Position numbers and translations under genes: made by a program. A stretch of 64,000 nt of DNA from Crambe crambe (taxonomy: Eukaryota; Porifera; Demospongiae; Poecilosclerida; Crambeidae), in assembly GCA_963924555.1 (NCBI GenBank), contig OZ004590.1, positions 806,001 to 870,000 of the forward strand, in the 5' to 3' direction. The notes below the pieces were generated by a model. That model made no database searches. It saw nothing but the letters and a program-made list of their open reading frames with translations, and was not told where the DNA came from. The first letter of the stretch is position 1, and each line of letters opens with the position of its first letter. Shown here piece by piece: positions 1 to 64,000 of this stretch.

Positions 1-2334
1 ATCACGGTAGAAGTACTGATGCACATGTGTGTGGCAGGATCTGGACTCCAGTGACCTTCTGCAGTGCAGTCAGTTCTGATGATGGTAGTTGGGCAAGTGA
101 AGTTGAAGGAAGAACCTTCAAATGTGCCAGCGAAGTTATCCACCACCACCACACCATCAGGTAACCCACACTCTCCTGCAATACAATGATGTTATAAGAT
201 GGCAATAGTACCTACATACATGTACCTCTGCACATGAATCCATCAATGTCTGGACTCCATACACCTCCAACACATGTGGCATTGTCCACACCAACCAACA
301 CTTGATTTACACTAATACATGAGAATGAGATGACAGTGCCCTCAGGGGCTGATGCCACACCCACCACATTAGGTACCAGTCTCACACGAGGACTGATGGA
401 AGGGAAGACACAGCGAGCTACAAAAAACATAGAAAGAAACTGAACAAAAACAAAAGTAAACAACAAAAATAAAACAACAAACAAACGAACAAAACAAAAA
501 ACATTGCATAGTGTTGTAGTTACAACTCTATTAGTCTCTCATAAATCACTTACTGTAGTTTAGTGAGGTGGATGCAGTGTAGTTGCCACCACAACGGTTG
601 ATGGCCCCTACAGTGATGTTGTACTGGGTGTTGAAGGGGACATTTGGGTATGGTTATGCTAGTCCTTGAAGCATTGTTATATGGAATAGGTGGACTGAAG
701 GCAATGACATAGTTGACACCATCCTGAGGTGTCCAGGATACATTGATAGCTGTGACACTAGTCCTCCCAAACTCCGGATCTGAAGTGTCAGGAAGTGTCA
801 GACTAAATGAAGTAGGAATATCTGCAGAGAGTAATGATCGTAACATCTATACCATCAGTAATAAACCTATAATTACATAAGAAGTATTTACAGTGTTAAG
901 CTTAAAGCCTATAGTCATTATTTTAAGCATGTGGTATGACAAGGAATGGATAATGAATTTGTATTCACTGAGGATGACAACTGAAACAAATAGCAAAAAA
1001 ATACAAATTCAAATATGTACACTGTCTGAAGTGATTAAGGGGAAAACTACAGAACCACAACCGGCAACCTAATGCTTTGGGCATGTATTTATTTTCTCCT
1101 GTTCTGCACCAATCTGACTAGGCAGTAGATTACACCTTTTATTCATATTCACTGCAAGCTATCTCATGGTTGTGTTTCATTGCATGCTCTGCTACTGCCA
1201 AGTTTGCACCAGCTGTCCCCTGAAGTTGATCCTGTGGCTCATTGTTCTACCTGTTTGGTGTCATTGCATGTGCTGCAAGATATTTGGTACACTGCTCCTG
1301 TCTGCTCGACCAAATGTAGTTATTGTCTTTATAAGCCAAGTATGTAGCATTGAGACAATATTTTAGCAACTTACTGACCGTCAGTGTTGTGTGCTCCTCC
1401 AAAGAATCATCTGCTGAGAGTCTATTTTTATGGCTCTATTAACTGGTGAAAGGTAAAGTCCCCAGGGAAAATAACGTGCTTTTATATTATCTCTACTCTT
1501 TATCTAGTAGGCAAGTTAAATATCAAGGAACAAACACACACACAAACAAGCATACAAACAAACATACAAATAAACAGCTGAATTTGTTCCAATGTGCCTA
1601 GCAACACAGGACTTTATTCCTAGGATAGTATGCTTTCAATATACAAATAGAATCCATATTTTAAAATAATACAAGTGCACAACTACACATTTTCAAGAGC
1701 CTTGAGTTGAAAGCAAATGCTTTGTGTTGGGTACTTGACACAATTACTGAAATACCTACCCACAGTTCATATTTTACTGTGTACTGAGCATGCTCACAAA
1801 CACTTAGAAATGGCTGGAGTCTTGACTGAAATTCTGACTGTCTCTTCATGGGATTCATCTTAGAAGTATCAAGCATAGAACAAACCATTACGCTCGTTGT
1901 GGAATAAGGTGAGATATTTCATACTTCTAATGTGCTCTAGACTATCTTCTTGTCAAAATCCAAGTTGCCTAATCTACTTGGGACAGTATTATCAACATTA
2001 CGTCTAAAAGTAATATTTGCAGTCCCACTCCTTCCTCCTCCTCCTCCTTCACACTGCACTACAGTTCCATCAAGACTCCTAGTAGCTGTTGTAGTGAGAG
2101 TGGACACTAGTTCCATAGGAGAAGTAGTATAGGAAGTTGATGCAGATGAGAATACTCCATCTGGTGTGATCAATGGCCTCATCCCGACTAATGCAGTGGA
2201 TGCAGCTAGAGGGTCATAATTCCTGGTAGGAGTGGTCATCCTCCACACCAATACTCCTTCATTAACAATGCAAGTGAACACTACTAGTTCTCCATCACAA
2301 GCAGCAACAGAGGAAGGAGATAAGGTCAATGCAT
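1..2334 (-). pseudogene. Receptor copy A (Ig-FN3-CCP-CCP), frameshifted, cut by window edge
   Basis: Minus-strand exons: Ig 2334-2002, FN3 821-554, CCP1 417-226, CCP2 175-1 (continues off the window). All borders are AG/GT and phase 1; the Ig donor reads C|GTAATG. The Ig exon is open (111 codons): first Cys in VVFTC, Trp in VLVWRMTT, second Cys in VVQCEGG followed by five Gly. CCP1 is open with its four Cys and the GGVW Trp. CCP2 is open but lacks three residues (VFA) found after GECGLP elsewhere. The FN3 exon has one extra T in the tract near 645, which shifts the frame after SITIP and removes the rest of the domain, so this copy cannot make the normal receptor. Its FN3-CCP1 intron (136 bp) is unlike the ~55 bp intron of most copies. 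The Ig-FN3 intron carries Penelope-like debris. The partner on the other side of the head-to-head spacer is copy B. Confidence 0.8.
1081..1300 (-). mobile_element. Penelope-like element remnant (GIY-YIG end)
   Basis: Read on the minus strand this matches the better preserved element at 33240-33540, where the frame reads CNDTYIGQTGRTMSHR, the core of a GIY-YIG endonuclease as carried at the C-terminus of Penelope-like retroelements. Here it lies in the Ig-FN3 intron of copy A but in the opposite orientation to the elements in copies D and F. It is a short decayed piece with no long open frame. The rest of 850-1660 holds only further fragments of the same element. Confidence 0.55.
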
Positions 2335-4009
2335 CTAACGTGAACAAAAAAGATGTGATTACTGAATCAGGAAATGGTGAGTGAGGGAAACCCTCTCTGA
2401 TCATAATATTCTTCACAAGAAAAGGAAATACAATCATAATAAACACACAATAACCTATTCACTATGCATATCTGTCACTGAAAACTCTTATTATCATGCA
2501 CATGATGATGCTGATGATAAAATAGTGGAACCTCCAATAAAGGACACTACAAAAGAGGAAAAATCCCCCAATCTAAAAAGTACCTTTATACACTCTATAC
2601 AAAGAGGACAATCTCTACAAAAGGTTGGGTCTCAAGTGTGTCCATTATCCAGAGGTGGTTCTACTGTACACTAAAAACATTGCCTAAGGGCAGCAGGTGC
2701 TCTACATTTTAAAAGGAATGACACCACATATTAAAGACACTATGCAACATAAGGCCTTACACGAGATAACATAACAATGTCCCCAGAGTCTAAGTCTGAG
2801 ATATGGGTAGCACTAGCAAAGAGATGGTAAGGATGACATGAGATATTTTTTTTTGTATGTGTTTTGTTTGTTTGTTTGTTTATTTGTCTATGCAGGTGCA
2901 GCAGACCCGATAACTGTAGACTTTAATTAGACCACTAACATGAACTGAACTTCATTATGTTTAACTGCAAAAACAATCTTCTTAGGTAGATTAGATCCTA
3001 GGAGATAACTGGCTAAGGGAATACTCATTGCTCACTCTGCTATGTGCTCATAAATCATCTGCTGTCTGATTGAACTTTGACCCTGCCATCCAAATGATAT
3101 AAAAATAGCCTTGTCCCCAGGCCCTCTTTTTTTAATTATGATTGTGAAGGGGCTGGTATAGAAACCATAGAGTGGGTGTGTCCAGGAAATGTATTCCCAT
3201 CACATGACGAATCAGTGTTGCTACACTTTGCTAGCCTAGCAGCAGATAGTATTGGAGCTGCTCATTGTTAGCTAGTAAACTATCAAGTAGTCTAGATTTT
3301 GTTCATCATTTAGGCTTAGCTGGATCATAGATAGATCAGCCTCAGAATTCTTTACAAGTATTAGTAAGTCCTTGGTTATAGCCATAGCGAATTGGTCATT
3401 TTGTTATATTGGGCAGGGTCATAATGCTCTCGTGCACTACTATGCCCTCCACAATCATAACTAAAAAGACTGCCTGGGCTAATATATAAGTGCAACTTTT
3501 AACTGCACATGTTCATATACAAAAAAATCATGTATAAAATGGACAATGATACAATTTTTCCTCCACTAACATGCATGATTAGTATGTGGGTTCACTTCAT
3601 TAACCCAATTACTTACTACACACATGCTAGTTTCCTTCCTCATAAATATCATTAATGCAAAACACATGTAGACGACATTTTACCCGATATTCAGGCTAGT
3701 CTGACGTCACAGCGACATTGTAGAAACCCAAGGGTCTGGTGATCCAGGACTTCCTTGAATTGTTAAGATATATTTGCTAGGATAGTGGAGAAGACCTACA
3801 CACTGCAACCTAGCCACCTCTTCTCCACCCCTCCTACTGGACATAACCACTGACTCACTGTCTATATGAACATACTGTTACATATTGTGTGTGCTCATCA
3901 AGACATGATAGTCTTGTATGGACTAACAATCAGCACATAAGACTTTGGGTGGGGCATATCTGCTTTTTTTCATACAACTTTAATATCTAGAAACTATAGC
4001 ACCTTCATA

Positions 4010-4080
4010 TACTTGCTACTGATTGATATCCATGGTATTAGTAGACAAATGGTATAAAGTCTGCTTTTCTCTGCCATTAT
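4010..4080. promoter_or_regulatory. Spacer block conserved upstream of every minus-strand receptor
   Basis: The core GATATCCATGGTATTAGTAG, followed by ACAAATGGTATAAAGTCTG, recurs near 12005, 12970 (diverged), 26735, 36655, 47965 and 58830. In five cases it lies about 1.1-1.8 kb upstream of a minus-strand Ig exon (A, D, F, H, J); the copies at 12005 and 12970 have no receptor beside them. The conservation may only reflect duplication of the whole spacer, so a regulatory role is a guess. Confidence 0.3.
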
Positions 4081-4238
4081 GACTCTTCACCCACCAGAGC
4101 AGCTTAGATGCATGCACTTTGACCTTTGATGCAGAATAATTTATTCAGACTGCTTGAGGTCAGTGATGTTGCAAAAAAACAGTGATCTTATCTGTTTAGC
4201 TACTAATCGGCTGCATCTCAACTTGCAGTAAGTCTGTA

Positions 4239-6278: not shown

Positions 6279-9200
6279 ATGCATGACCCTGTCTCCTTCT
6301 TCTGTCGTTGCTTGTGATGGAGAACAAGTAGTGTTTACTTGCAATGCCTAACCAAACCTTTGTGCAATGGACTGTTTCCACTCCCACATTCAACTACTCA
6401 CTGAGAGAAATAGACAATAATGATATGGAGCTGAGGACAGATGATGGTGTGTCACTCATATCAGGAGTTGCAAGGAGGAAACTTCAGTGCTGACACTTGT
6501 AGGTGGAACTAGTAATTAGTGTGGACAAGTGAGTCGGATCCTCTGAATGTAATTACTTGATACTATATAGTGCACCATACAGTGGGGTAGTATTGAAAAA
6601 TTAATACACTATGGTTCATATTTCAAGTTTTTAAAAATATTATACGATCAATTTTACTTTTAGTCAATTCAACAGGTGAAATCTTACAAAATAAACTAAA
6701 TATTGGCAAAAAAACCTATTTCGGGCTCCAGTTTAGCTACTTCAAGGGATATTATTCCAGCAGAATTCAGACCTTTCGATCATCTGGCTACAGCATCCCA
6801 GAGTTTCAGCTCCTGATTCACTACAGTTCATTCAGACTGGCTGCATGTTAGAAAACAGCTCCTAAATCAGTTTGGCTCAAATGTATTACACCTATGGGGG
6901 ATACTTGTGGAGGAAAAGTAGAAGAAGAAAATGTTTCCCATAGGCATAATAGATCAAGCGAAAAAATCATCACAGCATTAATATGCAGGCACTCAGTTTC
7001 CTTCATAATAGATATGTATGCTTGCAGCATATTAGTAGGTGAGTGAAGCTTTTTTACCAAGGCCTGGTGTTTCATGAATGGAGATGCTACTGTAATGAAT
7101 GCAAAAAATTTCTTCGAAATAAAAATGTGAAGTAGGGATGCTATTATAACTGCAGCTTCATTATGAAAACCAAGTACTGCAGCATCGAAGCAGTATGGCC
7201 CAAAAATCTAGCTGGAATATGTATTATAACTGCATGCAAGAGAGTGAACTTAGTGAAGTGACCCTTACCCATCATCAAGTACGAGATACTATTCCTACTT
7301 CACTCCCTTGGCCCTTGATCATGGGAGTGAAGTAGGAATAGTATCTCGTACTTGATGATGGGTAAGGGTCACTTCACTAAGTTCACTCTCTTGCATGCAG
7401 TTATAATACATATTCCAGCTAGATTTTTGGGCCATACTGCTTCGATGCTGCAGTACTTGGTTTTCATAATGAAGCTGCAGTTATAATAGCATCCCTACTT
7501 CACATTTTTATTTCGAAGAAATTTTTTGCATTCACTTGTTTGCATTCTTTTTCTTTGTGATTATGAAAATTGATAGACACTAAAGGCTTCCTTGATTGAA
7601 CTAAATTTATTTAATGATCAGTATTTCATTCTGTTCAGGGAGGAGAGTTTGAAGGATGATCATCTGCAGTGTAATGGAGTACTGAAAGGAGTGAACATTT
7701 TAAAAAGTGAACAGCATTAGCTAATTGTTACATATGTGATCACTGAAATAATTATTGAGATGGTACGTATGTCTTGCTTGAGGGAGGAGTATGGGGAGTT
7801 TATGCATTTGGTGTAGTGATCATAATAGTGGATGCCATCAAAAGGCCACATCCTGTGCAGGTGTTATATGAGGAGAACTGCTATTAATTGCCCCACCCCT
7901 TTTATGAGGTAATATCGCGAAGATTTTTTTCATACGAGGCTGCAGCACATTATAGATAGCCCAGCTAGATTTTAGGCTATCCCTACTTAACCTTTTTTCC
8001 ATGCAAATTTCTTTTGATTGCAGTAATAATTAGCTAATAATATAACTATGTGTGTGTGTGTCATCCTCTGCAGATATTCCTACATCATTTAGTCTGACAC
8101 TTCCTGACACTTCAGAGCTGGAGCTTGGGAGGACTAGTATCACAGCCATTAATGTATCCTGGACACCACAGGATGGTGTCGACTATGTCATTGCCATCAG
8201 TCCACATATTCCATATAACAATGCTTCAAGGACTAGCATAACCATACCCAATGTCCCCTTCAACACCCAGTACAACATCACTGTAGGGGCCATCAACCGT
8301 TGTGGCAACTACACTGCATCCACCTCACTAAACTACAGTAAGTCATTGTAGCAAATGTTGGCTGAATGAGTAGTCATTAACTTTCATGTAGCTCGCTGTG
8401 TCTTCCCTTCCATCTGGGACCCTTGTGTGAGACTGGTACCTAATGTGGCGGGAGTGGCATCAGCTCCTGAGGGCACTGTCATCTCGTTCTCATGTTATGA
8501 CTCAAACCAAGCACTGGTTGGTGAGGTGTATGAATACCAGATGTCAATGGAGCCATGTGCAGAAGTATGTATACTTTTATTGATCCTTATAATACCACTA
8601 AGAAAATACATTGTGGGGTGAGCATATAGCTAGTGATTCATAGTACATGCTTAACTTACCCTCATGGGGGAGTGTCTCTTCAGACTGCAGTAAAGATAGT
8701 CATAGCTACCATGTTTTTTTTCCTGTATTGCAGGAGAGTGTTGGTTACCTGTGTTTGTGCTGAGGGTGTGGTGGTGGTACATTTGAAGTTTCTTCCTTCA
8801 ACTTCACTTATACTGATGGTTTGAGTCCCACTACCATCATCAGAACTGACTGTACTGCAGAAGGTCACTGGAGTCCAGATCCTGCCACACACATGTGCAT
8901 CAATGCCAATGCTACCACAACTGCTGCTGATCTGACAACTAATGCTACTGATAGAGAAGGTATACATACTGAACTCTGTCTAGTGAAGGAGCACACAACC
9001 ATTTACATTGTTTTCTATACTAGTTACAGCACATGCTTCTGAACCAGTGAGCTCTACCACTGTGGTGGGTGTGGTCTGCAGCATTGTGTTCTTCATTGTT
9101 GGAGTGGTGGGTGGGTTTGCTGGTGGTGTTCTAATTGTGTATTGCTGTGGCAAGTGGCAGTTGGTTTACCAGAGGAATCACAACCTCCAACCCAGCCAGC

Positions 9201-9304
9201 CTCCACCTGCTCCACTTTATGAGGATGTCATTGTGACCACTGTTGTCAAAGATAAAGATGAGCTGGAACTAAAAGACAATGTAGCATATGGACATCTCAG
9301 GTAG
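6279..9304 (+). pseudogene. Receptor copy B, multiply broken
   Basis: Exon remnants: Ig 6279-6502, FN3 8074-8337, CCP1 8392-8564, CCP2 8734-8959, stalk-TM-tail 9024-9304. The Ig remnant (type III, like copy G) has a one-base deletion at its start, a one-base insertion creating TAA after the first Cys, and has lost about 110 bp of its middle. FN3 is open. CCP1 has lost about 22 bp including the third Cys, giving a frameshift. CCP2 has a 2-bp insertion and a 16-bp deletion, then an in-frame TGA. The last exon is fully open: Gly-rich membrane helix, PPPAPLYEDV and terminal VAYGHLR. The same CCP lesions occur in copy I. The Ig-FN3 intron holds the foldback element 7096-7534. Confidence 0.85.
7096..7534. 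mobile_element. Foldback MITE with ~212-bp near-perfect arms
   Basis: Positions 7096-7307 are the reverse complement of 7323-7534 with essentially no mismatches by eye, around a 15-bp loop. The centre (CTATTCCTACTTCACTCCC) is shared with the smaller foldbacks at 24119-24300 and 34204-34348, so they form one family. The duplicate block at 52140 lacks it, showing that it inserted after, or was lost since, the duplication. It has no coding capacity. Confidence 0.9.
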
Positions 9305-10724: not shown

Positions 10725-10757
<33 letters not shown>

Positions 10758-10838: not shown

Positions 10839-13800
10839 TTATGGTTATCCCTATTTATCATACTCATGATAAAAGAATATTCCCCAAGGCGAGCAGGTGC
10901 TCTACAACACCAGAATGAAATAGTAACAATGTCCACACAAAATAATTACACTAAGACAACAGACAAAAGATGAATGAACACTTCCTGTTTATATTTCTAC
11001 ATAAAAAATTTGTATTGCACATGTAGTGCACATGTAGATCATAAGAATTACTCTGCTTATAAAATTCTAAATAAAAACGTCTGCTGTTTCCTTATTTCCA
11101 CTATACTTCACAAGCACCTGTAACATGCCTTCGATGCATGCAGTTAAATTTAGAGCATTTCAAGATCACCCAAACTGGGTAGACTAAAGATGAAGTCATA
11201 TGAGCAAAGTGCTGGCTGGACATGAAATTTTTTGCTTGTTGGTTTGTTTTTGTTCACTCATTCTCCTCACATGTCCACTGTCTATGATTGAACCTTGACC
11301 CTGGTAACCAAGCAATATAGAGGAGTGCTACGTTTTTAACTACGCACAGTGATACACAATCATGACATGGCAGTACTTATTCTTCTACTAACATGCATGG
11401 TTAATGTGTGGGGTCACTTCACTCATAACTACAAATGCTATATTCCTTCCTTATGATAATGCACAACACATGTAGATGACCCTTTTCCTAGCCAATAGTA
11501 TCATGTGAGTCTGGCATTGCAGTAGCACTATACTAACTCAAGGACATTAGCATCTATGACTTACAGTATAATGGAAGACCAAGAAACTATATAATAGACA
11601 GAGCTGACTGTAGTAGTCACTGCATGCTATCTTGAATTGCATGCTAGCAATAAGAAAGAGATGAAACTCTAACTCCACTAACCAATGTCTACAGATATTA
11701 TTAGCTAACATGAACTACATTAACAGCTGAATTAATATAGCTAAAAAAGCAAAGATTATGAAAATGCTCAGGCTATGACCTCCATGAGAGAGAGAGAGTG
11801 GTGCTATTGCTTCCATAATTATGACTTTAGTTATATCACCTTTTATTTCTCATCATTTCCTATCCATCTCTTCCCCATCTCTTCTCCTGGACATAGCTAA
11901 CTGTCTATAGCTAGCTCGTATATCACAGATAAGAATAAGTCTATAAGACTGGGGCATATCTGCTTGTTACAAAAACTATATGAACAGCTCTATAATTATA
12001 CTTACTACTGATTGATATCCATGGTATTAGTAGACAAATGGTGTTTTTCTCTGCCATTATGACTTCACCACTCCCCAGAGCTAGATGCATGCACTTTGAC
12101 CCCTGTGCAGCAATGTTAAATTCATACTCAATGACTAAATGATGTTGCAAAAGAACAGTCATCTTATCTATTTACTAATCTGCTGTATCTCGACCAGTAA
12201 GTCTGTGATAATTATTAACTAGCAGCTGTAGCTAATTTGGAGGTTCCACTGTATACTAAAAAGGACAGCAGGTGCTCCATATGGGATGATAAAACATCAG
12301 TGCAATACATAATAATGTCCTCATAAAGTAACAAAGTCTATACATCTGAAATAATATTATGGGTAGCACAAGCAAAGAGATGGCCGCATGAACATGTTTG
12401 TTTTTTGTTGTTTTTTATGTAGGTGGTATGTTTATTTGTTTATGCAGGTGCAGAAGACCGACCCTAGGTTCAAGGTTTTGGCTAACTAATTACATACATT
12501 GAACTTCATTCCACATCCAAACAATATAGAAGTGCAACTTTTAACTGCATGTGTTCACATACATGCATAAAATGGGTTAATTTTTCTTCTACTAACATGC
12601 ATGATTAGTCACTTCACTCACCCAATTTCTTACTACACTAATGTCATAAACGCACAGCACATGTAGACGACTAGTCTGACATCATAGCAACACTGAGGAT
12701 CTCAAGGATCTGAATGAACCCAAAGATCTGAATGAACCCATGGATTGTGGAAATGCTCCAACCTATGACCTCAGGTGGTGCATCTATTTCAGCCCTTGTC
12801 TCTGTACTATTGAGTGCTCTTATCAGTAGACCCCTACATTATCATACAACCTAGCCACGTACCTTTTCTCTAAGGCACACACTCTCGACACATAGCTAAA
12901 CTATTGGGGGTGGGGCATCTCTGCTTTTTCATACGACTTATCTAGAGAGTAGAGAAGCTTTATATACTGACTGAAATCCATGCTATTAGTAGATAAATGG
13001 TATAAAGTCTGTTTTGCTCTGCCATTGCTTTACCAATCCAGAGATGCATGCACTTTGACAAGGTTCTTGATTCTATGATGGTGCAGAAGAACAGTCATCT
13101 TATCTGTTTACTAATCTGCTGCATCTCAACTAGCACTGCAGTAAGTCTGTAATACTAAGCTAGCAGCTATGAGCTATCATAATAAAGTTAATGGTGTCAG
13201 TCAAGTTGATGTAGCTAGCTAATCCACAGGAAAGATCTTTGCCACTTGCAGTTCTAGTGAGGATAGCATTATTAACCCAAACCTGATCTCTGATCTCTTC
13301 CCATGCAACTTCTGTCAGATTGACTACTCATGTGACTACTGCACTATAGTGCATGGTGTTGGACCGCCTTATTATTTATTAACCAAACACTCCACTTAAA
13401 CAATGCCATATGAGGAATTAATTGCTTGCATAGCTACATGAACAATTAATCACCAACGCACCCAGAAATCATTACATGTAATACAAATCCTTCTACTAAA
13501 ATACTATTAACAAGATGCGTGGAAATTTGCATATACAAATGGCACACATGGTAATGAACTTTTGATACATGGTTAGTTAATCTAACCAAAGTTATGTGAT
13601 TCCTAGAATAGCACTTCTTCTCCAGTGGGCCATTTCATGTAAGGAAGTTTTTGCTTTAAACCATAGGTATGAGTGATAGACCAAAGCCCATTTAGACAAC
13701 TGTAGCAGACTATCTACACTTTCTAGCGCCATGCAAAGAATCGTTAAATACAGAAGATTCACATAAAATGACCCTGCTTATGTAGTAAAATTAATACATT

Positions 13801-14748: not shown

Positions 14749-14881
14749 GGAGGAATCACAACCTCCAACCCAGCCAGCCTACACCTGCTCCACTTCATGA
14801 GGATGTCGCTGTGACCACTGTTGTCAAAGATAAAGATGAGCTGGAACTAAAGGACAATGTAGCATGTGGACATCTCAGGTA
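14749..14881 (+). pseudogene. Stray receptor tail remnant
   Basis: A fragment of the last receptor exon, from RNHNLQPSQ to the stop. It begins abruptly inside the spacer word CTTCTTCTCCAGTGG, so it arose by a recombination junction, not splicing. Both tail tyrosines are changed: APLYEDV reads APLHEDV and VAYGHLR reads VACGHLR. No membrane helix or extracellular exon precedes it. Confidence 0.8.
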
Positions 14882-15955: not shown

Positions 15956-16300
15956 TTAATAATGGCCATGCAGAAAAGTATTCACTTGAGATGTCCATAA
16001 TAATGCTACATTGTCCTTTAGTTCCAGCTCATCTTTATCTTTGACAACAGTGGTCACAGTGACATCCTCATAAAGTGGAGCAGGTGGAGGCTGGCTGAGT
16101 TGGAGGTTGTGATTCCTCTGGTGAACCAACTGCCACTTGCCACAGCAATACACAACTAGAACACCACCAGCAAACCCACCAACTATGAAGAACACAATGC
16201 TACAGACCACAGTCACCACAGTCACTGCACATACAATAGTTAGTATTATAAAGAGGATTGTGCAGTGAAGTTATCAGGTAACCCACACTCTCCTGCAATA
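15956..16300 (-). pseudogene. Stray receptor TM-tail exon with CCP2 vestige
   Basis: The minus-strand frame 16225-15956 reads from TVVTVVCSIVFFIVG through the membrane segment and PPPAPLYEDV, lacks three residues (GVV) of the helix, and runs out of frame at the end so that VAYGHLR becomes VALLWTSQ with an extended tail. About 16250-16300 preserves only the first bases of a CCP2 exon (its GGAGAGTGTGGGTTACCTG start) with most of the exon deleted. Copy C begins barely 100 bp further on, on the other strand, so this is the truncated partner of C. Confidence 0.8.
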
Positions 16301-21798: not shown

Positions 21799-22297
21799 GA
21801 TCAGTGTCTAAGTAGTCAGTACGGAACAATGAATACCTAAAAGATGATGACACTCATTGACTTACGTTAAAAGTTGTGTTATCACAGAAAAAGAAATGAA
21901 AGCAGAGAGAAAGCAAGCAAAAAGTGAGCAGCAGCAGGCAAATGCAAGTACATGTAGCAACAAGCAGCAGCTGGAAAATGCAAGCACCAGCATGCAGAAT
22001 ACAAGCATAATGATGTCACTTTAACATCCTGAAATGTGTTCCAACTACTTATTTTTGCGTTTTTAAATTTCGCAATACATTCTCTATGTGGTGCGAAAAT
22101 TTAAATTTTCGCGCTTATCGCATTTTAGTTTTTGAAGATAGAAAGTCACAAAACATGTGGATTTTGGAATTCTATGATTGGATCCTATCATAAAATTAAA
22201 GTTAAATGTATAAAGATTTCATAGGAAAAAATGGCACTTTTGTCCACTCTGTCCCCATTTCATGAAATTTTGTTGTTAAGCCACCTGACTACAACAG
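21799..22297. other. 5' flank of the chimeric ORF
   Basis: AT-rich sequence with no match seen elsewhere in the window and no recognised gene. It joins the ORF above to the broken FN3 exon of copy D, so the insertion plus this flank replaces the CCP1, CCP2 and stalk exons of D. Confidence 0.4.
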
Positions 22298-22358
22298 TTG
22301 ATGGCCCCTACAGTGATGCTGTACTGAGTCAGTACAGCATCACTGTAGGGGCCATCAA
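22298..22358. repeat. 30-bp-arm palindrome made from FN3 coding sequence
   Basis: 22298-22327 is the reverse complement of 22329-22358 around one G. Both arms are the FN3 stretch encoding TQYNITVGAIN, once sense and once inverted. This is a local inverted duplication at the break of the FN3 exon, as expected from template switching or a foldback repair event. Confidence 0.85.
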
Positions 22359-23930: not shown

Positions 23931-24118
23931 ACCAAAGGTGTAATTGGGTTCATGACCATTCTTCACGTTACACAAAAGTCATTAGGGGGTTTGATTAGGG
24001 GGTTAATATTTTAAACTTTGGTATTGTGGGTCAAAGGTCAGTCCAGTCCACTCTTTACAAATAAAGGAAAAAGATTTACCATATTCTAAGAAAAAGTACA
24101 GCTGGCTGTATGCAGTTC

Positions 24119-51344: not shown

Positions 51345-53582
51345 ATGCACTGACCCTATCTCCTTCTTCTATTGTTGTAGTGTTTACTTGCACTGCCTAA
51401 CCAAACCTTTGTGCAATGGACTGTTTCCACTTGGACTGTTTCCACTCCCACATTCAACTACTCACTGAGAGAAATAGACAGTAATGATATGGAGCTGAAG
51501 ACAGATGATGGTGTGTGCATCACTCATATCAGGAGTTGCAAGGAGGAAACTTCAGTGCTGACACTTGTAGGTAAATTTTGGTGGAACTAGTAATTAGTGT
51601 GGACTAGTGAGTTGGATCCTCTGAATGTAATTACTTGATACTATATAGTGCACCATACAGTGGGGATAAATTGAGTAGTTTTGAAAAATTAATACACTAT
51701 GGTCAATTTTTTTTAAATAAAATAAAAAGTTATATGATCAATTTTAGTTTTAGTCAATTCAACAGGTGAAATCTTACAAAATAAACTGGAATATTGGCCA
51801 AAAAAAACCTATTTCGGGCTCCAGTTTAGTTACTTCAAGGGATATTATTCCAGCAGAATTCAGACCTTTTGATCATCAGGTTACAGCATCCCAGAGTTTC
51901 AGCTCCTGATTCACTACAGTTCATTCAGACTGGCTGCATGTTAGAAAACAGCTGCTAAATCGGTTTGGCTTAAATGTATGGGGGGACACATGTGGAGGAA
52001 AAGTAGAGGCATAATAGATCAAGCAAAAAAATCATCACAGCATTGATATGCAGGCACTCAGTTTCCTTCATGTATGCTTGCAGCATATCAGTAGGTGAGT
52101 GAAGCTCTCTTACCAAGGCCTGGTGTTTCATGAATGGAGATGCTACTGTAATACTGAACTGCTCTTTGTCAAAGTCTATCTAGCTATTCATTCATTAACT
52201 TACTGGCTGGAGAAATTCTGCAGTGAATGTAACCTATTGAACTGTGCGTTCCATGCGATATGCATGTACATACAACCAACAACTACCTGATGCATCATAT
52301 GACATGGCAGTACTTTTTTTCCATGCACTAGTGCGTGGGTGAGTGAATTGTACATGACTGATCTCTTTAGTGCAGGTGACCCTACATCATTTGGTCTGAC
52401 ACTTCCTGATACTTCAGATCTGGAGTTTGGGAGGACTAGTATCACAGCCATTAATGTATCCTGGACACCACAGGATGGTGTCAACTATGTCATTGCCATC
52501 AGTCCACCTATTCCATATAACAATGCTTCAAGGACTAGCATAACCATACCCAATGTCCCCTTCAACACCCAGTACAACATCACTGTAGGAGCCATCAACT
52601 GTTGTGGTGCCAGCTACACTGCATCCACTTCACTAAACTACAGTAAGTCATTGTAGCAAATGTTGGCTGAATGAGTAGTCATTTAACTTTCATGTAGCTC
52701 GTTGTGTCTTCCCTTCCATCTGTCCTTGTGTGAGACTGGTACCTAATGTGGTGGGTGTGGCATCAGCTCCTGAGAGCACCACTCATGTTATGACTCAAAC
52801 CAGTCACTGGTTGGTGAGGTGTATGAATACCAGATGTCAATGGAGCCATGTGCAGAAGTAGCTATGTATAGTTTTATTGATCCCTAAGAAAATACATTGT
52901 GGGGTGAGCATATTAACTAGTGATTCATAGTATATGCTTAACTTACCCTCATGGGGGAGTGTCTCTTCAGACTGCAGTAAAGATAGTCATACCATGTTTT
53001 TTTTCCTGTATTGCAGGAGAGTGTGGGTTACCTGTGTTTGTGCTGAGGGTGTGGTTGTGGTACATTTGACGTTTCTTCCTTCGACTTCACTTATACTGAT
53101 GGTTTGAGTCCCATTACCATCATCAGAACTGACTGCACTGCAGAAGGTCACTGGAGTCCAGATCCTGCCACACACATGTGCATCAATGCCAGTGCTAGCT
53201 ACCACAAGTGCTGCTGATCTGACAACTGATGCTACTGATAGAGAAGGTATACATACTGAACTCTGTCTAGTGAAGAAGCACACAACCATTTATGTTATTT
53301 TCTATACTAACTACAGCATGTGATTCTAAACCAGTGAGCTCTACTACTGTGGTGGGTGTGGTCTGCAGCATTGTGTTCTTCATTGTTGGAGTGGTGGGTG
53401 GGTTTGCTGGTGGTGTGTATTGCTGTGGCAAGTGGCAGTTGGTTCACCAGAGGAATTACAACCTCCAACCAAGCCAGCCTCCACCTGCTCCACTTTATGA
53501 GGATGTAATTGTGACCACTGTCGTCAAAGATAAAGATGAACTAGAACTAAAGGACAATGTAGCATATGGACATCTCAGGTAG
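51345..53582 (+). pseudogene. Receptor copy I, multiply broken
   Basis: Remnants: Ig 51345-51570, FN3 52376-52642, CCP1 52698-52857, CCP2 53016-53246, last exon about 53311-53582. The Ig has lost the stretch before the first Cys, has a stop (TAA) just after it, an internal 17-bp-scale duplication and the same ~110-bp loss as B. FN3 is open, with NCCG where others have NRCG. CCP1 has lost its second and third Cys by deletions. CCP2 has the same insertion and deletion as B. The acceptor before the last exon reads TACTAA where others have TACTAG. The membrane helix lacks three residues (LVV). The tail itself is intact: PPPAPLYEDV, VAYGHLR. Confidence 0.85.
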
Positions 53583-55514: not shown

Positions 55515-55595
55515 TCACTTTAGATGTCCATATGCTACATTGTCCTTTAGTTCCAGCTCATCTTTATTATTAACAACGGTGGTCACAATGACATC

Positions 55596-57761
55596 CTAAT
55601 AAAGTGGAGCAGGTGGAGGCTGACTGGCTTGATTCTTCTGGTGTACTGACTGGCACTTACTGTTGCAATACATGCCACCAGCAAACCCACCCACCACTCC
55701 AACAATGAAGAACACAATGCTGCAAACCACAGTCACCACAGTGGTAGACACCATCATCTTACCTTCATAAGGGGATATTGTACTTACATAAACTGCCTCC
55801 TACAGGAAGTACATACCTTCAGTAGTTGTGGTAACACTGATATTGATGCACACGTGTGTTGCAGGATCTGGTCTCCAGTGACCTTCTGCAGTGCAGTCAG
55901 TTCTGATAATGGCAGTGGGACTCAAACCATCAGTACAAGTGAAGTTGAAGGAAGAACCTTCAAATGTAGCAGTGAAGTTATCAATCACCACCAAACCATC
56001 AGCTAATACAGGTAACCCACACACTCCTACAATAATACATGCAATGTCAGCTATGAAATAAAGTGGAGATAGCCACCTCTGCATATGACTCCATCAATGT
56101 CTGGACTCCATATATTTCCAATACATGTGGCACTCTCCACACCAACCAACACTTGATTCACACTAATACATGACAATGAGATGACAGTACCCTCAGGGGC
56201 TGATGCCACACCCACCACATTAGGTACCAGTCTTACACGAGGACTGATGGAAGGTAAGACACAGTGAGCTACACGAATGACAGTGAAAATAAAATTTGAT
56301 ATTGACACAAAATGACTTACTGTAGTTTAGTGAGGTGGATGCAGTGTAGTTCCCACAACGGTTGATGGCCCCTACAGTGATGTTGTACTGGGTGTTGATG
56401 GGGACATTGGGTATGGTTATGCTAGTCCTTGAAGCATTGTTATATTGGATAGGTGGACTGATGACAACGACATAGTTGACACCATCCTGTGGTGTCCAGG
56501 ATACATTAATGGCTGAGATACTAGTCCTCCTAAACTCCAGGTTTGAGGTGTGGGGAAGTGTCAGATTAAACGATGTAGGGTCACCTACAGAGGATGATAC
56601 ACACAGTTGTATATGACAAAAAAATTCTCTTCATTCTCCCTTATAGCTAACTGCATTCAAGGTTGATGGTAAGGGAGGGCCAATGCTTGCTGAATTGTTG
56701 AATAATAATTCGATAATTAGTTATGTTTCAGTTCAAGGAGGTATGTATCAGCTATATCTAGACTTTGACCCAACTCTACCAGATTCCAAGAATAGCATGC
56801 TTCAAATTATTAATAAAATGATTTCCTTTTTTTACATATTATAATTCAATGTAGTGTAACAGCAAACAAGATCAACTCAAGTCTTGTGCTGAATACTATC
56901 ACGAGTACCTCTAGAAAAACACACCAATGCTCTGTGCTGGGATAAAAAGTGACTTTGAATACAGTTAAGGTTTGCATTCAGGTAATTGGGACATGTATGC
57001 CCAGTCATCAGGGGTTGCTATTCCAACTGCCATGATAACTTTTAGGTACTGATGAATCGGGACTGTCCAGCATTCTAGTCCACTGTTTAGTGGTTCATCC
57101 TATGAATTCCATGAGGAGACAATCAGAATTTCAGTTTCTAATAATTAGACTGAATTGCAGTAAAAAAGGATAGTCAACAAAAGCAAATGGCTAATTTAAT
57201 TGATTTACTTTATGGGTTGCTACTTCACAAAAGTGTCAAGTATGCTGTACAGAATAAAACATAGGAAGCATAGATCTCGCCACAGACTCAATACGATATT
57301 TAGTACTCACAAATGTTCTTAAGGCATGTTAAGTAACAGTCCAAGGAAGAGTCTTGACAAGTGGCCAAAAATAGACATATCTACTTGGGACAGTATCATA
57401 ATATTATCCACATTACGTATAAAAGTAATATTTGCAGTCACACTTCTTCCTCCTCCTCCTCCTTCACACTGCACTACAGTTCCATCAAGACTCCTAGTAG
57501 CTGTTGTAGTGAGAGTGGACACTAGTTCCACAGGTACTGTAGAAGAATTAATAAAGGAAGTTGCTCCATATTTAAACACTCCATCTCGTGTTGTGAATGG
57601 CATCGTCCTCCCCACATCTGAAGGGACTGCAGCTAGAGGGCCATAGTTCCTTGTAGGAGTGGTGATACTCCACACAATTACTCTTACATTAACAGTGCAA
57701 GTGAACACTACTAGTTCTCCATCACAAGCAGCAACAGAGGAAGGAGATAAGGTCAGTGCAT
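55596..57761 (-). CDS. Receptor copy J (Ig-FN3-CCP-CCP-TM), tail cut by a stop
   Basis: Minus-strand exons: Ig 57761-57417 (115 codons, the longest), FN3 56584-56321, CCP1 56268-56077, CCP2 56026-55817, last exon from about 55762. The frame is open through the membrane helix to PPPAPLY, where TAG (55596-55598) replaces the conserved Glu codon; the old reading frame then continues to a stop at 55515-55517, still ending VAYGHLK. The product, about 392 residues, would keep the extracellular domains and anchor but lose both tyrosine contexts except the Tyr at the very end. The last-exon acceptor is weak (TTATGAAG|GTAAG), and the juxtamembrane region reads MYCNSKCQ where others have VVYCCGKWQ. The Ig has RVIVWSITT and an insertion (INSSTVP) in its E strand. 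It could be a decoy form or an early pseudogene. Confidence 0.7.
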
Positions 57762-59942
57762 CTAACATGAACAAAAAAGATGAGAGTGATGACATTTTTC
57801 CTTCCTAGTAAATCAGGAGGGAAACCCATTCCAGTCATGGTTAAACAAAGTTCAATAACGTGGTAAATACAAGAGAAAAGATATCACCATGCACCACATT
57901 ATCATACACATGATAAAAGAATATTCCCCAAGGCGAGTAGGTGCTCTACAACACCAGAATGAAATAGTAACAATGTCCATACAAAATAATTACACTAAGA
58001 TAACAGACAAAGATGAATGAACACTTCCTGTTTATATTTCTACATAAAAAATTTGCATTGCACATGTAGATCATAAGAATTACTCTGCTTATAAAATTCT
58101 AAATAAAAACGTCTGCTATTTCCTTATTTCTACTATACTTCACAAACCTTGACCCTAAGGGTCTGGTAACCAAGCAATATAGAGGAGTGCTACGTTTTTA
58201 ACTACGCACAGTGATACACAATCATGACATGGCAGTATTTATTCTTCTACTAACATGCATGGTTCATGTGTGGGGTCACTTCACTCATAACTACAAATAC
58301 TATATTCCTTCCTCATGATAATGCACAACACATGCAGATGACCCTTTTCCTAGCCAATATTTGGGCTAGTATCGTGTGAGTCTGGCGTTGCAGTGACCCT
58401 GTACTAACTCAAGGACATTGGCATCTAGGACTTACACAGTGTAATGGAAGACCAAGAAACTATATAATGGACAGAGCTGACTGTAGTAGTCACTGCATGC
58501 TATCTTGAATTGCATGCTAGCGATAAAACTCTAACTCCACTAACCAATGTCTACAGATATTATTAGCTAACATGAACTACATGAACAGCTGGATTAATAT
58601 AGCTAAAAGCAAAGATTATGGAAATGCTCTGGCTATGACCTCCATGAGAGAGAGAGTGATATCACCTTCTTTATTGTCTATTTCCCACCCATCTCTTCCC
58701 TACCTCTTCTCCTGGACATAACTCACTGTCTATAGCTATAACACACAGATAAGAACTAGTCTATAAGACTGGGGCATATCTACTTGTTATAATAGCTATA
58801 AACAGCTCTATAATTATACTTACTACTGGTTGATATCCATGGTATTAGTAGACAAATGGTATAAAGTCTGTTTTTCTCTGCCATTATGACTTCACCACTC
58901 CCCAGGGCTAGATGCATGCACTTTGACCCCTGTGTAGCAATGTTAAATTCATACTCAGTGACTAAATGATGTTCCAAAAGAACAGTCGTCTTATCTATTT
59001 ACTAATCTGCTGTATCTCGACCAGTAAGTCTGTAGTAATTATTAACTAGCAGCTGTAGCTAATACAGTAATTTATAGTGCTGTAGTTGCTTGCTGCATGA
59101 TTTAGCTAAACTAGTATCAATCACATTGCTTGCTGCTTTAACCTATAAATAGCTAGCTATAGTATTTTATGGGAAAGAGCTAGAAAGTCTTTGCTGCTTG
59201 TAACAGCCACTAACCTGTCAGTATACCAGTAATGTCTTCCCATGCAACCTCTTTCAGGATTTATGGGGTGCATTATAGTCAGCAATATAGCATGGTGGTG
59301 GACTGCTTTTGTTTACCAAACACTCAATTTAAAATAAATAATGCCATATTAGGAGACTTTGAAGTGTTTGCTTACATTGCTACATGCATGGCTTTTTACT
59401 CCACACTGCACACACAGCATACAATCATGATCTTATTCATGCAAGTAACTCTATTCTAATGTTCATCCATGATTCATCTGTATCCTGTGAAATGCAGATA
59501 TTATAGGTATAATTACTTAATTAAGGGAATGATAGTCAATAAGGAGTTCTGATGAGACCATGGTGTGGCTTCAAATCCTTTCCCACTTTTTTGGCATGAG
59601 GAGGGAAAGGGTCTGGCCCAGTGACATTAGGCATTTTGTTCTGGTAGGATGTAGGGTGGGGGTGGTAGTTGATGAACCACTTAGTCAGCACTTTTTGTGT
59701 GTGTGCGAATTTCAGCTAGCTAGCTAGCTAAAAATGTTCACACACACATGCACTTAATAAGAATAATAACTGACAATTAACTGCATGAGAAATAGTGCAC
59801 GTTGATGCTTGCATGAAGTACAAGTGCAAATCTTAACCACCTGAAGTAGACATAAAATAAAGTGTTATTACTAATATTGGACAGTGCAAAATAAATAATT
59901 TACATGTGATAAACCCGTATTGAAGGATATTACTAATAGATA

Positions 59943-60243
59943 CAAGTAAGGGAAAAAGCATTTCGTGAAATGAAAAAAGATGTAGGGATGCAAAAAAAGT
60001 AAGGAAACAAGAAGGATGCAAATGGGATCAATCTTTGTTCTGTATATCCAGCCAACAATCCCTACATATACATCGGGTAGCTTCAGATTATAGTGTAGTA
60101 ATGTACGTATATGTAAGGATTGTTGGCTGGATATACAGAACAAAGATTGATCCCATTTCCATCCTTCTTGTTTCCTTACTTTTTTGAGCAGTGGTCATCC
60201 CTACATCTTTTTTCATTTCACGAAATGCTTTTTCCCTTACTTG
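59943..60243. mobile_element. Foldback MITE, ~130-bp arms
   Basis: CAAGTAAGGGAAAAAGCATT at the left is inverted at the right end; arms cover most of the 301 bp around a short AT-rich centre, with one ~20-bp segment (TTTTTTGAGCAGTGGTCATC) present only in the right arm. Half of the same element is at 27828-27960. Confidence 0.85.
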
Positions 60244-60490
60244 TTCCTGGTCTTTTTTCCTCTCTTTTATGGTTTTAGCTATGTATAGAGTTCATTCTTC
60301 TATGTGTATGCAGGGACAGATGAAAGAAGAATAGTTCTCCAATAGTTCTTACCAGCCCAATCATTCTCAACAAGTCAAGGTGTTGTGTTATTGTTGAGCT
60401 ATACTTGGGGGTCAAAGGAAGATGCTGAAATAGAGTCTACCCCCGTGAATCTAAATCCCCGAGTCGATACAGTAGTCTATCATCATTATC

Positions 60491-61097
60491 TAGAGCTAGT
60501 CTCGCAAGCCAGCCGTATTTTTCACGCGCGAAAAGGGGGAGGGGGAGGAAGAAAAATACGTCTGGTCAGACTGGCCAGGTTTTTGTGAACTCCACCAGAA
60601 TCTTGGTGGAGCCAATCAGATCAAAGTAGTCATGTGATGTTCAATAAATCATGTGACATGATGACGTATTGCTACTTTTTCTAGCTCGCGCGTGAAAATG
60701 AACCGAAGCAGAAGAGAACCCACTAGTGAAGAGGAGGTAGGCGCAGCTATGGACGAGGCAACCAAAAGGCTTGGGTAGTCTAGCTTTAGAGAAAACCAAA
60801 GGCACATCATAGCCAGTTTTTGCAAGTGGCCGAAGTGATGTCTTCGCTAGCATGCCTACTGGCAGTGGCAAATCACTTTTAGTAACTGCATTTTGCCAAC
60901 TTTATTTGACTAACAGACGCCTCCATTGCCATAATATAGCTATATCTATGTGCCAAATTCAAATTAGTCATGTGATTTTAATGCGACTTGACTGCGCGAC
61001 TGAAATTAATTGCATTCCTTTTGTTCACAAAATCCTGGCGAGTCTGACCAGACTGTACATATGGAATATCAGGCTGGCTCGCGAGACTAATCTAGAG
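60491..61097. mobile_element. TIR element carrying a broken RecQ-like helicase fragment
   Basis: The ends are inverted repeats: TAGTCTCGCAAGCCAGCC at the left, and at the right the inverse with G for A; a second inverted block (TCTGGTCAGACTGGCCAGG type) lies inside each end. TCTAGAGCTA occurs on both outer sides and may be the target duplication. Inside, plus-strand frames read MNRSRREPTSEEEVG, a stop, FRENQRHIIASF, a frameshift, and GRSDVFASMPTGSGKSLL (about 60830-60890), which is the Walker A region of a RecQ-type helicase. Nothing follows of the other helicase motifs, so it is a captured, inactive fragment. Confidence 0.65.
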
Positions 61098-61335
61098 CTA
61101 GCTAGAGACAGCTGAGTAATATAATAATTGGATATCAAATACATGCGCATGTGTATTATAGAAAAGATGGCTTCCTAATTGAATTAGTTGAGTGCTGTGC
61201 TCCGTAGTGTCTCCTTTTTCATCGACTCTTTCAAGGATCAATGAGTAGAAAAGATCATAGTTCGTAGAATTTGGAGTGGATTTATCCAGAAATCATAGCT
61301 GTAGCTTGAGTGGTTCGAGAGATATGGTTGTCTAA

Positions 61336-61336
<1 letters not shown>

Positions 61337-61390
<54 letters not shown>
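61337..61390 (+). repeat. (AAT)18 microsatellite
   Basis: Eighteen uninterrupted AAT units. The open frames across it on either strand (poly-Asn and poly-Leu) are by-products of the repeat. Confidence 0.95.
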
Positions 61391-61391
<1 letters not shown>

Positions 61392-62348
61392 GAGAAGAAG
61401 AAGAATCCAGCGATTTACCTGCTTGCCGTATTTCTGAAACGGTAAGCTCCCTGGTCCTGAAACTTGGTCTGCACATTGTAGTAGGCTCTAGTAGGCTGGA
61501 TAATCATACACAGTAGCTTTTGTTAGGTCTAAGTGGGGGAACTAGAATATCACTTTTGTATTAGTCTATAGGCGGCGCACGTGGCCGTCCGAATCATCCC
61601 TACATAGAGAGTGCTACCGCACTCTCTGATTCTGTGTCTAGCTAGCTAAGTGTGAGAGTTTCAAAGAAAGAAGGCAATTGTCTTTGTTGTGCATGAAATC
61701 CCATGAGCTATGATGAGTTTGAAGATTATACACTGCTTCATAAAACTCTCATGAATCTACACAAGCACTCTGGTGTATTATATTTCACTGTAATAGGATC
61801 AAATGATTGCAAACATTGGGCAAGTATATCTGACCCTTTCCTTGATACAATAGCTAAGTGACATCTGGTGCAGGAAGCTTTTGAATGGCCAAGGTAAACA
61901 GTAGCTACTTGCTTTTATTATTGTCAAGACATACACATACCAATGTCTGTAACTCCTAACATGGAATTAGTGTGCTGTTGCATCTTCCCTTCTTTTTTTT
62001 TTTGGAAGTCATCATAATTATGAAATATTCTGATGTACTAGCTATGCTGGGGAGCTGGCCAGAACAGGTCTCAATTACTGGAATGGAACTAATTTTCCCA
62101 TTCCACCTGCATGTGTCAGTGATCAGAAAATTTGATTAAGAGACCTGCCCATGCATAACACATCCCATTGCACTAAATAGTGTTCATTGATGGATGAGCA
62201 TTAAATCTCTTTGCCATCCAAGTAGCGTAGTAGGGTTATAGTAACTTTAATCTAAAGCCAGAGACCATGCAGTTAAAGGTATTATAAATATGAACTCTAA
62301 ACATGTTTTAAGCATGCATCTTTTCCGACTTATAGCTAGTTAATATAA

Positions 62349-62450
62349 GTTGACCAAGGGATCTACGGTATTTAAAAACCCAAGAGCCCTGGCTAGTACA
62401 GCGAGGGCACTGCTTAGGGCTCGAGGGTTTCTAAATGACATTGGTCAAGG
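62349..62450. repeat. Short imperfect hairpin, possible MITE
   Basis: TTGACCAAGGGATCT and AAACCCAAGAGCCCT at the left pair with AGGGCTCGAGGGTTT and ACATTGGTCAA at the right, giving about 45-bp imperfect arms around a short loop. No copies noticed elsewhere in the window. Confidence 0.5.
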
Positions 62451-63034
62451 TATCTAAGTTATTTAGTCTATAGCATAGCTATATGCAATCAGAGTAAGGG
62501 CTTCAAATGATTAGCTAGTCAGCCAAAGAAAGCTTCATACACAGAGATTGAAGCCAATTTTACTTCATGCAGCACTATACACTTGAAAATATACACTTAC
62601 TAAGTCATCTGCACTATTTGCTAATATTTCATGTTAAAAATAATTCATGTGATAAATATTCATGTTAAATTAATTTTGTAATAAGCTCTAATAATTAATT
62701 TTTGTTATAAAGCATTTTCATACATGTACTGTACAAGTGTATGAAAATATTTTAACAATGAAAAATTACGGTACCTTCAGGTATCTTGTTACTCTTCTTT
62801 TAGCTTCTGTTGGAGCTTCTTAGTGCAGAAAACTAAAATCTCTAACTTATATTTGAAACTCTGTCCACCGTCTTTGCCATGCATGCAATATTCATGAGTA
62901 TGCGCAGTGGATTTAGATACTTGGCAATAATGGAGTGCCCTAATAGGAGGTCTATATTAGAATACCCTAAGAGGAGCTTTTCTGTTTATATGAGATTTAG
63001 GAGCGTTGGCGGTTATTGATCTATTAGGGCAATT

Positions 63035-63065
63035 CCTGTGCAATTGCGAAATGCAATTGCACAGG
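63035..63065. repeat. 13-bp-arm palindrome upstream of K
   Basis: CCTGTGCAATTGC and its inverse separated by GAAAT, about 60 bp before the Ig exon of copy K. It may be a structural or binding site; there is no direct evidence for either. Confidence 0.6.
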
Positions 63066-63126
63066 GAAAGTTTCATGTTCTACTTGTTTACCATATATAA
63101 TTTTATCTTCCTTCATTTCGTCAAAG

Positions 63127-63465
63127 ATGCAGTGACCTTACTCTCTCCATCTTTTGCTGCCTGCAGTCAAGAAAATGTGATGTTCACATGCAATGCTACT
63201 ATTCAAGTTGGAATTCTATGGACTATCACTTCTCCCATGATGAACTACTCATTCCGTATTTTGAATCAGCGGGATGTGGGGATAATGCCACTTCCCACTA
63301 CAAATGATGGTCGTTTCACATTCAATGTAACATCTTACACACCCTCCACTATGGAACTGGAGACCACTGTGACTATGACTGCCAGTGAGGACTTCAATGG
63401 AACTGTGTTGGAGTGTGGTACAGTTGTATCAGGAAACCGAGACACTGCAGTTATGACAGTTATAG
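63127..63465 (+). CDS. Receptor copy K, Ig exon (gene continues off window)
   Basis: One phase-1 exon of 113 codons, acceptor GTCAAAG|AT and donor ATAG|GTAATT. Type II Ig: VMFTC, GILWTITS, LECGTVVSG. It differs from C and E mainly in the first loop (NATIQVGILW), after NY (SFRILNQRDV), in one extra residue before the F strand (TTNDGRF), and after the second Cys (GTVVSGNRDT). The frame upstream of the acceptor is also open and hydrophobic (MFYLFTIYNFIF), which may be a pyrimidine tract read as protein and not a real leader. FN3 is not reached by 64000. Confidence 0.7.
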
Positions 63466-64000
63466 GTAATTTATTTCAGTACGAGATCATATTTTTTAAG
63501 CTCCTCATGGATGTGTAATTGAAGCATACACTCAGTTTACAAACTAGACTACTAATCATACAATAGCTTGCATGAATTAGGCTGCATCAATGTATGCTGT
63601 ATTTATATGGGAATCTGAATTGCTAGATGATCATTGTTACTTGGAATTAAATTACATGTTGGAAGCATAACTAGAGATTCTACCTAATTTATTTTTAAAG
63701 CTCCTTTCGTATCTCCTAGGTTTTACCTACTATGTCCATCATAAAAAAGCTGTTTTGTGTGTTGTGCATACTCATAAACACTTTCATTTCACTACTACTG
63801 ATCGTGTTGTGAACCATCTCTGCTTTTTATTATGGCCTTTTCCATAATGGTCCTGCCCATCTATTATATGTATGTACATAGCAGGCAGACTCTGTGCTAG
63901 TTCTCAAGGAGCCATAAAGAATAACGTGATTAGTGAGCATTCAGTATTTGCCAAGCATTTGTATTCAATTGTTATTGAGTAACCCAAAGCTAATCTGTTT
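63466..64000. other. Ig-FN3 intron of copy K
   Basis: Resembles the intron after the Ig exon in C and E (for example GTGAGC...CAGTATTTGCC near 63934-63951, as near 17189-17210). No exon seen before the window ends. Confidence 0.55.

Follow-up and report, generated by a model that had tools for sequence, protein, structure and literature searches.

A paired array of Ig-FN3-CCP-CCP-TM receptor genes in the sponge Crambe crambe as a candidate self/non-self recognition locus

The receptor genes and their paired starts

The 64,000-nucleotide stretch of Crambe crambe DNA analysed here (the window; C13:806001-870000, on contig C13 of 7,568,904 bases in an assembly of 143.1 Mb and 119 contigs) carries a cluster of genes for predicted membrane receptors, each built from leader, Ig, FN3, CCP-like, CCP and transmembrane (TM)-tail exons. 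An earlier note on this DNA had proposed an allorecognition or immune locus with eleven copies (A to K) and two stray tail exons. When the exon types were searched against the window with tblastn, all eleven copies were recovered on the strands given there, as were both stray exons, the head-to-head pairs A/B, D/E, F/G, H/I and J/K, and the strand alternation from C onward. FN3 matches shared 90-98% identity with the query, an agreement that chance does not explain. The gene had been described with five exons; a sixth, 5'-most leader exon exists, 1.1-5.4 kb upstream of the Ig exon. In our view the array is a strong candidate for a locus of self/non-self recognition, short of proof, and the proposal of an allorecognition or immune locus is partly supported overall.

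Searching for phase-1 leader exons conserved between copies, we found two leader types, MMLQNNSHLICLLICCISTS (p) and MADRNRLYTICLLIPWISIS (m), arranged head to head in cassettes. The DNA of the F/G cassette (36652-36834), used as a genome query, matched 15 places, all on C13, in the array and a neighbour cluster. In 14 cassettes, 49-101 bp lie between the m start codon and the p-leader word ATGATG or GTGATG (three p words start with GTG, placing the ATG 3 bp further; an inverted cassette at 886 kb lies outside the 14 measured). A core, A[CT]TT[TC]GAC (the ACTTTGAC core), was the sole block of the gap kept in all cassettes and was present in 15/15, which do not count as 15 independent events because the cassettes are related to one another. 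We infer that the leaders are signal peptides and that the short gap is a bidirectional promoter.

Spliced models of copies C, E, F, H and J have GT-AG boundaries and phase-1 exons, and five of the eleven window copies (C, E, F, H and K) are open through all exons. C, E, F and H had been called open earlier; E, F and H passed the automatic six-exon check and C passed after its leader was read, but C lacks one CCP1 cysteine. Copy E (26849..30150, + strand) is intact, with its leader from 26849, Ig type b at 28115-28447, FN3 at 28935-29198, CCP1 at 29254-29445, CCP2 at 29542-29787 and the TM-tail exon to 30150. A 62-bp gap between start codons (26787..26848), a candidate bidirectional promoter with the core, separates it from the broken copy D (19813..26786, - strand; leader 26727-26786, Ig type a 24570-24908, FN3 fragment 22359-22562). 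The tail exon of D (19816-20022) is in frame with a mobile-element-like open reading frame of 664 aa (19813-21807), and no CCP exon was found in this copy. A 280-residue piece of the reading frame had 101 genome-wide matches, and no Pfam match was found; it apparently represents a mobile-element-like sequence that captured a receptor tail.

The intact copies F (30957..36711) and H (43696..48016) lie on the - strand. F has its leader at 36652-36711, Ig type a at 34599-34931, FN3 at 31820-32086, CCP1 at 31573-31764, CCP2 at 31304-31528 and the TM-tail exon from 31243 to 30957, and a 63-bp gap with the core (36712..36774) leads to broken copy G (36775..41801, +; leader from 36775, Ig type c 40539-40868, frameshifted FN3 to 41801). 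The domain order held to be common to all copies was found in the better-preserved ones, but neither CCP could be detected in D, nor any CCP or TM exon in G. In H, the leader (47957-48016), Ig type a (45809-46144), FN3 (44570-44833), CCP1 (44323-44514), CCP2 (44034-44273) and TM-tail exon (from 43982 to 43696) are all present. Its partner I (48102..53582, +), across an 85-bp gap to the GTGATG word with the core (48017..48101), is broken by a leader stop, a broken Ig and a truncated CCP1, and keeps FN3 (52376-52642) and a TM-tail exon to 53582. Copy J (55518..58884, -) carries its leader at 58825-58884, Ig type a at 57417-57761, FN3 at 56321-56584, CCP1 at 56077-56268, CCP2 at 55817-56026 and a TM segment. 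It is open to a tail stop, as had been reported, and the stop sits right after the first tail tyrosine; with this end (55518-55757, -), J would yield a receptor almost without a tail. Copy K (58966..64000 and beyond the window, +), across an 81-bp gap with the core (58885..58965), has its leader from 58966 and Ig type b at 63133-63465; called open as far as seen, it proved to be a complete, intact gene lying mostly past the window end.

At the other end of the window, copy A (1..4077, -) runs off the window start and is broken by an FN3 frameshift and a changed leader donor (leader 4018-4077, Ig 2002-2334, FN3 549-825, CCP1 226-417, CCP2 from 172 on). The A/B cassette gap (4078..4162) measures 85 bp to the GTGATG word and has the core. 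Copy B (6283..9304, +) has a decayed p leader, a broken Ig and a broken CCP1, with Ig type c fragments at 6283-6451, FN3 at 8074-8337, CCP1 from 8392, CCP2 from 8779 and the TM-tail exon to 9304. Copy C starts in a leader cassette at 12007..12196, in which an m leader (12007-12057, -) and the p leader exon of C (12139-12196, +) flank an 81-bp gap with the core (12058-12138). The open body of C (16422..18492, +) comprises Ig type b (16422-16754), FN3 (17316-17582), CCP1 (17638-17829, one Cys changed to Tyr), CCP2 (17882-18145) and the TM-tail exon to 18492. A 15-bp tandem repeat of 2.3 copies (18103-18137) lengthens the stalk of C in the linker between CCP2 and TM. The leader intron of C holds, within 12966-16234, a decayed second leader cassette (12966..13134), a stray tail-exon fragment found by tblastn (14751..14879, +) and a stray tail exon that has lost its YGHL end (16004..16234, -). 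These contents are evidently the remains of a lost pair.

The FN3 exon passes the Pfam fn3 threshold (26.2 bits, cut-off 25). The earlier CCP-CCP labels stand for CCP2, which nearly reaches the Pfam Sushi cut-off (20.1 bits versus 20.7, E 0.00087) with four cysteines and the tryptophan in place, but less well for CCP1, which gave no Pfam Sushi match. Comparison of CCP1 with CCP2 by hhalign was also weak (probability 2.5%, E 0.019), and we call CCP1 CCP-like, on its four-cysteine pattern only. The Ig exon was matched in Pfam by Ig_3 in 4/9 members, below the cut-off (best E 0.0023). A profile made from the nine Ig exons of the window gave 1299 matches to PDB sequences at E up to 10 (best 2.3e-4), and the best 60 of these 1299 were antibody chains by name, mostly over the first 30-50 positions. 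Assignment of the exon to the immunoglobulin superfamily is mainly by this similarity of profile.

The predicted cytoplasmic tail carries two tyrosine motifs, YED[VI] and [VI]AYGH[LF], beside a proline-rich stretch. Among 27 full-length stop-free tail exons, the first motif read LYED[VI] in 26 and FYEDI in the remaining one, the second read VAYGHL in 22, IAYGHL in 2 and VAYGHF in 2 and was lost in one, and GGFA[GA]G within the TM segment was kept in 27/27. The consensus of the cytoplasmic immunoreceptor tyrosine-based inhibitory motif (ITIM) is [SIVL]xYxx[IVL]. The second motif fits it in 24/27 tail exons, the two with VAYGHF falling outside, and the first (PLYED[VI]) has the YxxV/I core only; as a sequence, the tail qualifies as ITIM-type. 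On C17 (L037), C14 (L039) and C21 (L040), proteins whose ectodomains are of other kinds and mostly give no Pfam match finish in similar tails, and the predicted tail is common to several receptor families.

Divergence and exon exchange

The Ig exons fall into types a to d, and these are divided between the two sides of the cassettes. Ig type a was found on 11/12 m-side copies and type b, c or d on 14/15 p-side copies, where 27 copies were given a side by leader or cassette (g24 and g38 among them by strand only) and g7 and g9 were left unassigned; without g24 and g38 the counts were 10/11 and 13/14. The arrangement is crossed at 913 and 918 kb, with Ig a following leader p and Ig c following leader m; Ig exons can therefore change sides.

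We compared the copies by nonsynonymous (dN) and synonymous (dS) divergence from Nei-Gojobori counts, in which copy pairs are not independent of one another. Between Ig types dS was 0.71, and FN3 dS was 0.073 for pairs of different Ig type and 0.067 for pairs of the same type. When sides were permuted (2000 shuffles), the observed value was reached in 0 shuffles for Ig, 3 for the 100 bases before FN3 and 1 for the 3' untranslated region, with a weak signal (38) in the CCP2-TM intron. FN3, CCP1, CCP2, TM and the first two stalk introns gave no signal (215 to 1243 shuffles). Even where stalk introns were unrelated (mean identity 0.24-0.29; 31, 134 and 125 pairs), dS of the flanking exons was still 0.05-0.21. 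We read this pattern as exon-restricted, incomplete gene conversion of stalk and tail. Conversion tracts running through introns were rejected as a general account, since many introns are unrelated beside alike exons. The earlier description of a pseudogene-containing, recombining array with a signalling-type tail is borne out by the broken copies, the exon exchange between strands and the tyrosine-motif tail.

Selection was estimated from the same counts. In Ig a, codons 41-60, a block picked after seeing the profile, had dN 0.415 and dS 0.202 (dN/dS about 2, codon bootstrap 0.018), and the framework had dN 0.067 and dS 0.097. For the stalk and tail, dN/dS was 0.55 in FN3, 0.74 in CCP1, 0.61 in CCP2 and 0.44 in TM, with codon-bootstrap P of 0.009, 0.004 and 0.001 for FN3, CCP2 and TM respectively.

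Extent of the array and variation in public sequences

The receptor cluster is real and extends past the window edges. On C13, 42 exon groups were annotated across 310-350, 700-720 and 760-960 kb, 29 of them with an Ig exon. The automatic six-exon check was passed by 12 of these 29, and with g5, g10 and C, once their leaders were read, 15/29 are open through all exons. Of 14 pairs (the decayed nested cassette excluded), both genes were intact in 2, one in 11 and none in 1 (binomial P 0.027; 0.059 when the nested cassette is counted). Loosely, and post hoc, this favours the keeping of one gene per promoter.

The earlier note had proposed looking for expansion elsewhere in the genome, and relatives were found outside both the window and C13. 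An FN3 query had at least 47 genome matches, confined to C13 and C3, and a tail-exon query at least 71, on C13, C17, C3, C21, C14 and C5. At C3:4.67-5.13 Mb (L038) lies a sister group of about nine Ig-FN3 copies, spread out and mostly on one strand. One C3 relative was read and keeps the order Ig-FN3-CCP-CCP-TM, with sub-threshold Pfam fn3 and Sushi matches; a genome search with cassette DNA did not find the C13-type leader cassette at this group. Weak Ig-like matches to an Ig a query (E 1e-5 to 6e-4) were seen at C9:6938659-6956174 and C17:6299858-6563930, and are possible further receptor families.

A profile search of public proteins with the Ig alignment found 29 Ig proteins, where the spliced whole protein as query found only two. 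Compared with 27 near-full-length C13 Ig exons, 15 of the 29 matched at >=98.9% and 14 at 80-97%; some are fragments of 59-96 residues, and the listed proteins represent 90% clusters. All nine listed proteins of contig 178782 were identical to reference copies, none of the seven of contig 379984 reached 98%, and contig 1075418 had five reference-matching and five variant proteins, a variation measured between public contigs and not between known individuals. Two variant Ig sequences searched against the genome found no closer copy (best 87% and 98%). Since second-haplotype contigs were deposited for the Crambe crambe genome, as its published description indicates (PMC12166358), the variants may be alleles.

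Candidate roles and known systems

We propose that the array encodes type I membrane receptors that evolve by birth and death and distinguish self from non-self, whether the non-self is another individual or a microbe, and we put the probability of this reading at about 0.55. The 49-101-bp gap would drive both sides in the same cells, and the Ig tip would bind variable ligands, which could be family members, other allotypes or microbes. Contact would lead to tyrosine phosphorylation of the common tail and to SH2-type signalling, so that many different tips could feed one pathway, and exon-restricted gene conversion would preserve a uniform output from diverging tips. The variable tip, the uniform stalk and tail, and the shared start region would have separate roles, and together with the variable content these features fit recognition receptors. 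An allorecognition role is plausible; these data cannot separate it from microbe recognition. A more specific form, which we advance only tentatively, is an allodeterminant locus organised as a modular pair array. One promoter would serve two Ig classes with a common tail, tips would diversify and occasionally swap sides, stalk and tail would stay uniform by exon-restricted conversion, and haplotypes would differ in their tips. If true, the locus would correspond to TgrB1/TgrC1 in its layout, as their counterpart in an animal, and to fester/FcoR in the parts it uses.

Several results weigh against the proposed receptor family. AlphaFold models were poor for the Ig exon (mean pLDDT, the predicted local distance difference test score, 56.9) and for CCP1 (pLDDT 52.7), and a Foldseek search of PDB with the poor Ig model gave no match at E <= 0.001 and no Ig among the 50 listed. 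Exon dS was lower where introns were alike and higher where they were unrelated in 5/6 comparisons, which means that conversion was not complete, and codon constraint is an alternative to conversion for the likeness of the exons. The hypervariable block of Ig a was chosen post hoc, dN/dS of the whole Ig a domain (1.30) fell short of significance (0.084), and values below 1 were obtained for types b, c and d (0.76, 0.68 and 0.81). Relaxed constraint and diversifying selection cannot be told apart by comparing the sequences of copies. Of the 29 Ig-bearing copies, 14 are broken, close to half. Separately, obligate intact pairs were rejected, only one gene being intact in 11/14 pairs.

The receptors could instead be innate receptors for microbes or symbionts, with Ig tips that track bacterial ligands and no role between sponges. 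The large multigene array, the hypervariable tip and the sushi-like domains would fit this, the within-genome copy number suits a repertoire, and the signalling-type tail is also found on other ectodomains on C14, C17 and C21. A divergent-pair layout is not known as a mark of microbe receptors in animals, which counts against this account, and we hold it possible but doubtful.

A narrower version of the self/non-self reading takes the genes as matched partners, each divergent pair encoding a receptor and its ligand or co-receptor, in the manner of TgrB1/TgrC1 or fester/FcoR, with sponges fusing only if pairs match. The difference in Ig types between sides, the common short gap and the variable public sequences speak for it. 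Pairs with both genes intact, as a pair of the TgrB1/TgrC1 kind would need, were only 2 of the 14, so cis partners are not required at most pairs, and the tally therefore stands against obligate partners in cis. Two pairs also depart from the usual sides, one with Ig a on p, the other with Ig c on m. We consider this version unlikely.

Less likely still are adhesion, developmental or gamete-recognition proteins that were tandemly amplified, pairing having been carried along when one divergent pair was duplicated. Adhesion proteins often have Ig-FN3 stalks, the interrelated cassettes mean that the layout need not reflect 15 separate events, and the C3 relative has the same exon order. Against this, the tip is the most divergent part and stalk and tail are not, and Ig sequences differ between public contigs. 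A largely decaying cluster with little present function, in which relaxed constraint would account for the high dN of the Ig tip and for the broken copies, and to which the mobile-element-like insertion in D would also belong, is improbable given the 15 open six-exon genes, the gap core in every cassette, the low and significant dN/dS of FN3, CCP2 and TM, and an Ig framework below 1.

Under the self/non-self reading, the array can be set beside known recognition systems; the likenesses rest on published descriptions, in the available parts of the cited papers, and not on sequence homology. Dictyostelium tgrB1/tgrC1 (PMC12324515) encode polymorphic TM proteins with Ig-like (TIG/IPT) ectodomains, present as several pairs per genome, many decayed and diversified by recombination. 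Unlike the Ig-FN3-CCP-CCP order here, their domains are TIG/E-set, allorecognition is proven there, and usually one pair per genome is functional. In Botryllus, the fester family (FF) and FcoR (PMC12065747) have Ig and sushi ectodomains, their genes are adjacent in pairs, haplotypes vary in gene content, and FcoR tails carry ITIM, hemITAM (a form of the immunoreceptor tyrosine-based activation motif, ITAM) or a YxxI/L/V core. Unlike the Crambe genes, fester spans the membrane three times and lacks a signalling tail, the order in FcoR is Ig-sushi-Ig-Ig, and the parts of that paper at hand do not mention FN3; FF and FcoR are different proteins, whereas stalk and tail are common to both sides in Crambe.

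Hydractinia Alr (PMC11999971, PMC11067881) resembles the array in its clustered single-pass receptors of the Ig superfamily, many pseudogenes and divergent alleles, and ITAM/ITIM motifs are reported for candidate genes (PMC12065747); FN3 and CCP domains and a paired promoter layout go unmentioned in the available parts of the Alr papers. Tetrahymena MTA/MTB (PMC3608545) form a tandem array of head-to-head pairs, each gene combining a specific segment with a TM exon that is shared, and serve non-self recognition. They differ in being unrelated ciliate proteins with incomplete germline pairs, one of which is assembled in the soma; in Crambe, the genome sequence itself already contains 15 open genes, and no search was made for rearrangement. 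Among sponge molecules, the aggregation factor, glyconectins and the Geodia Ig-like adhesion molecule (PMC11999971) are likewise involved in cell recognition, the last with an Ig-like domain. The aggregation factor and glyconectins are proteoglycan-like, and the sections of that paper at hand mention no clustered Ig-FN3-CCP-CCP-TM family.

Grafted sponges are described as discriminating self from non-self predictably (PMC5450542). The main text of that Amphimedon grafting paper, as available, was searched for the terms immunoglobulin, receptor, sushi, fibronectin and domain, and none of them occurred in it. In the open-access literature, judged by titles and abstract openings and with few subscription journals covered, we recognised no account of a comparable sponge receptor family, clustered and variable. 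If confirmed, the array would place paired, Ig-tipped, tyrosine-tailed recognition receptors in sponges besides cnidarians and tunicates, and its exons, candidate promoter element and chromosome position are open to testing in a living species.

A short repeat encoding VGWIYRTKI (59871-60194 of the window) recurs beside receptor genes on C13, C17 and C3, and is a neighbour of the loci L037, L038 and L040.

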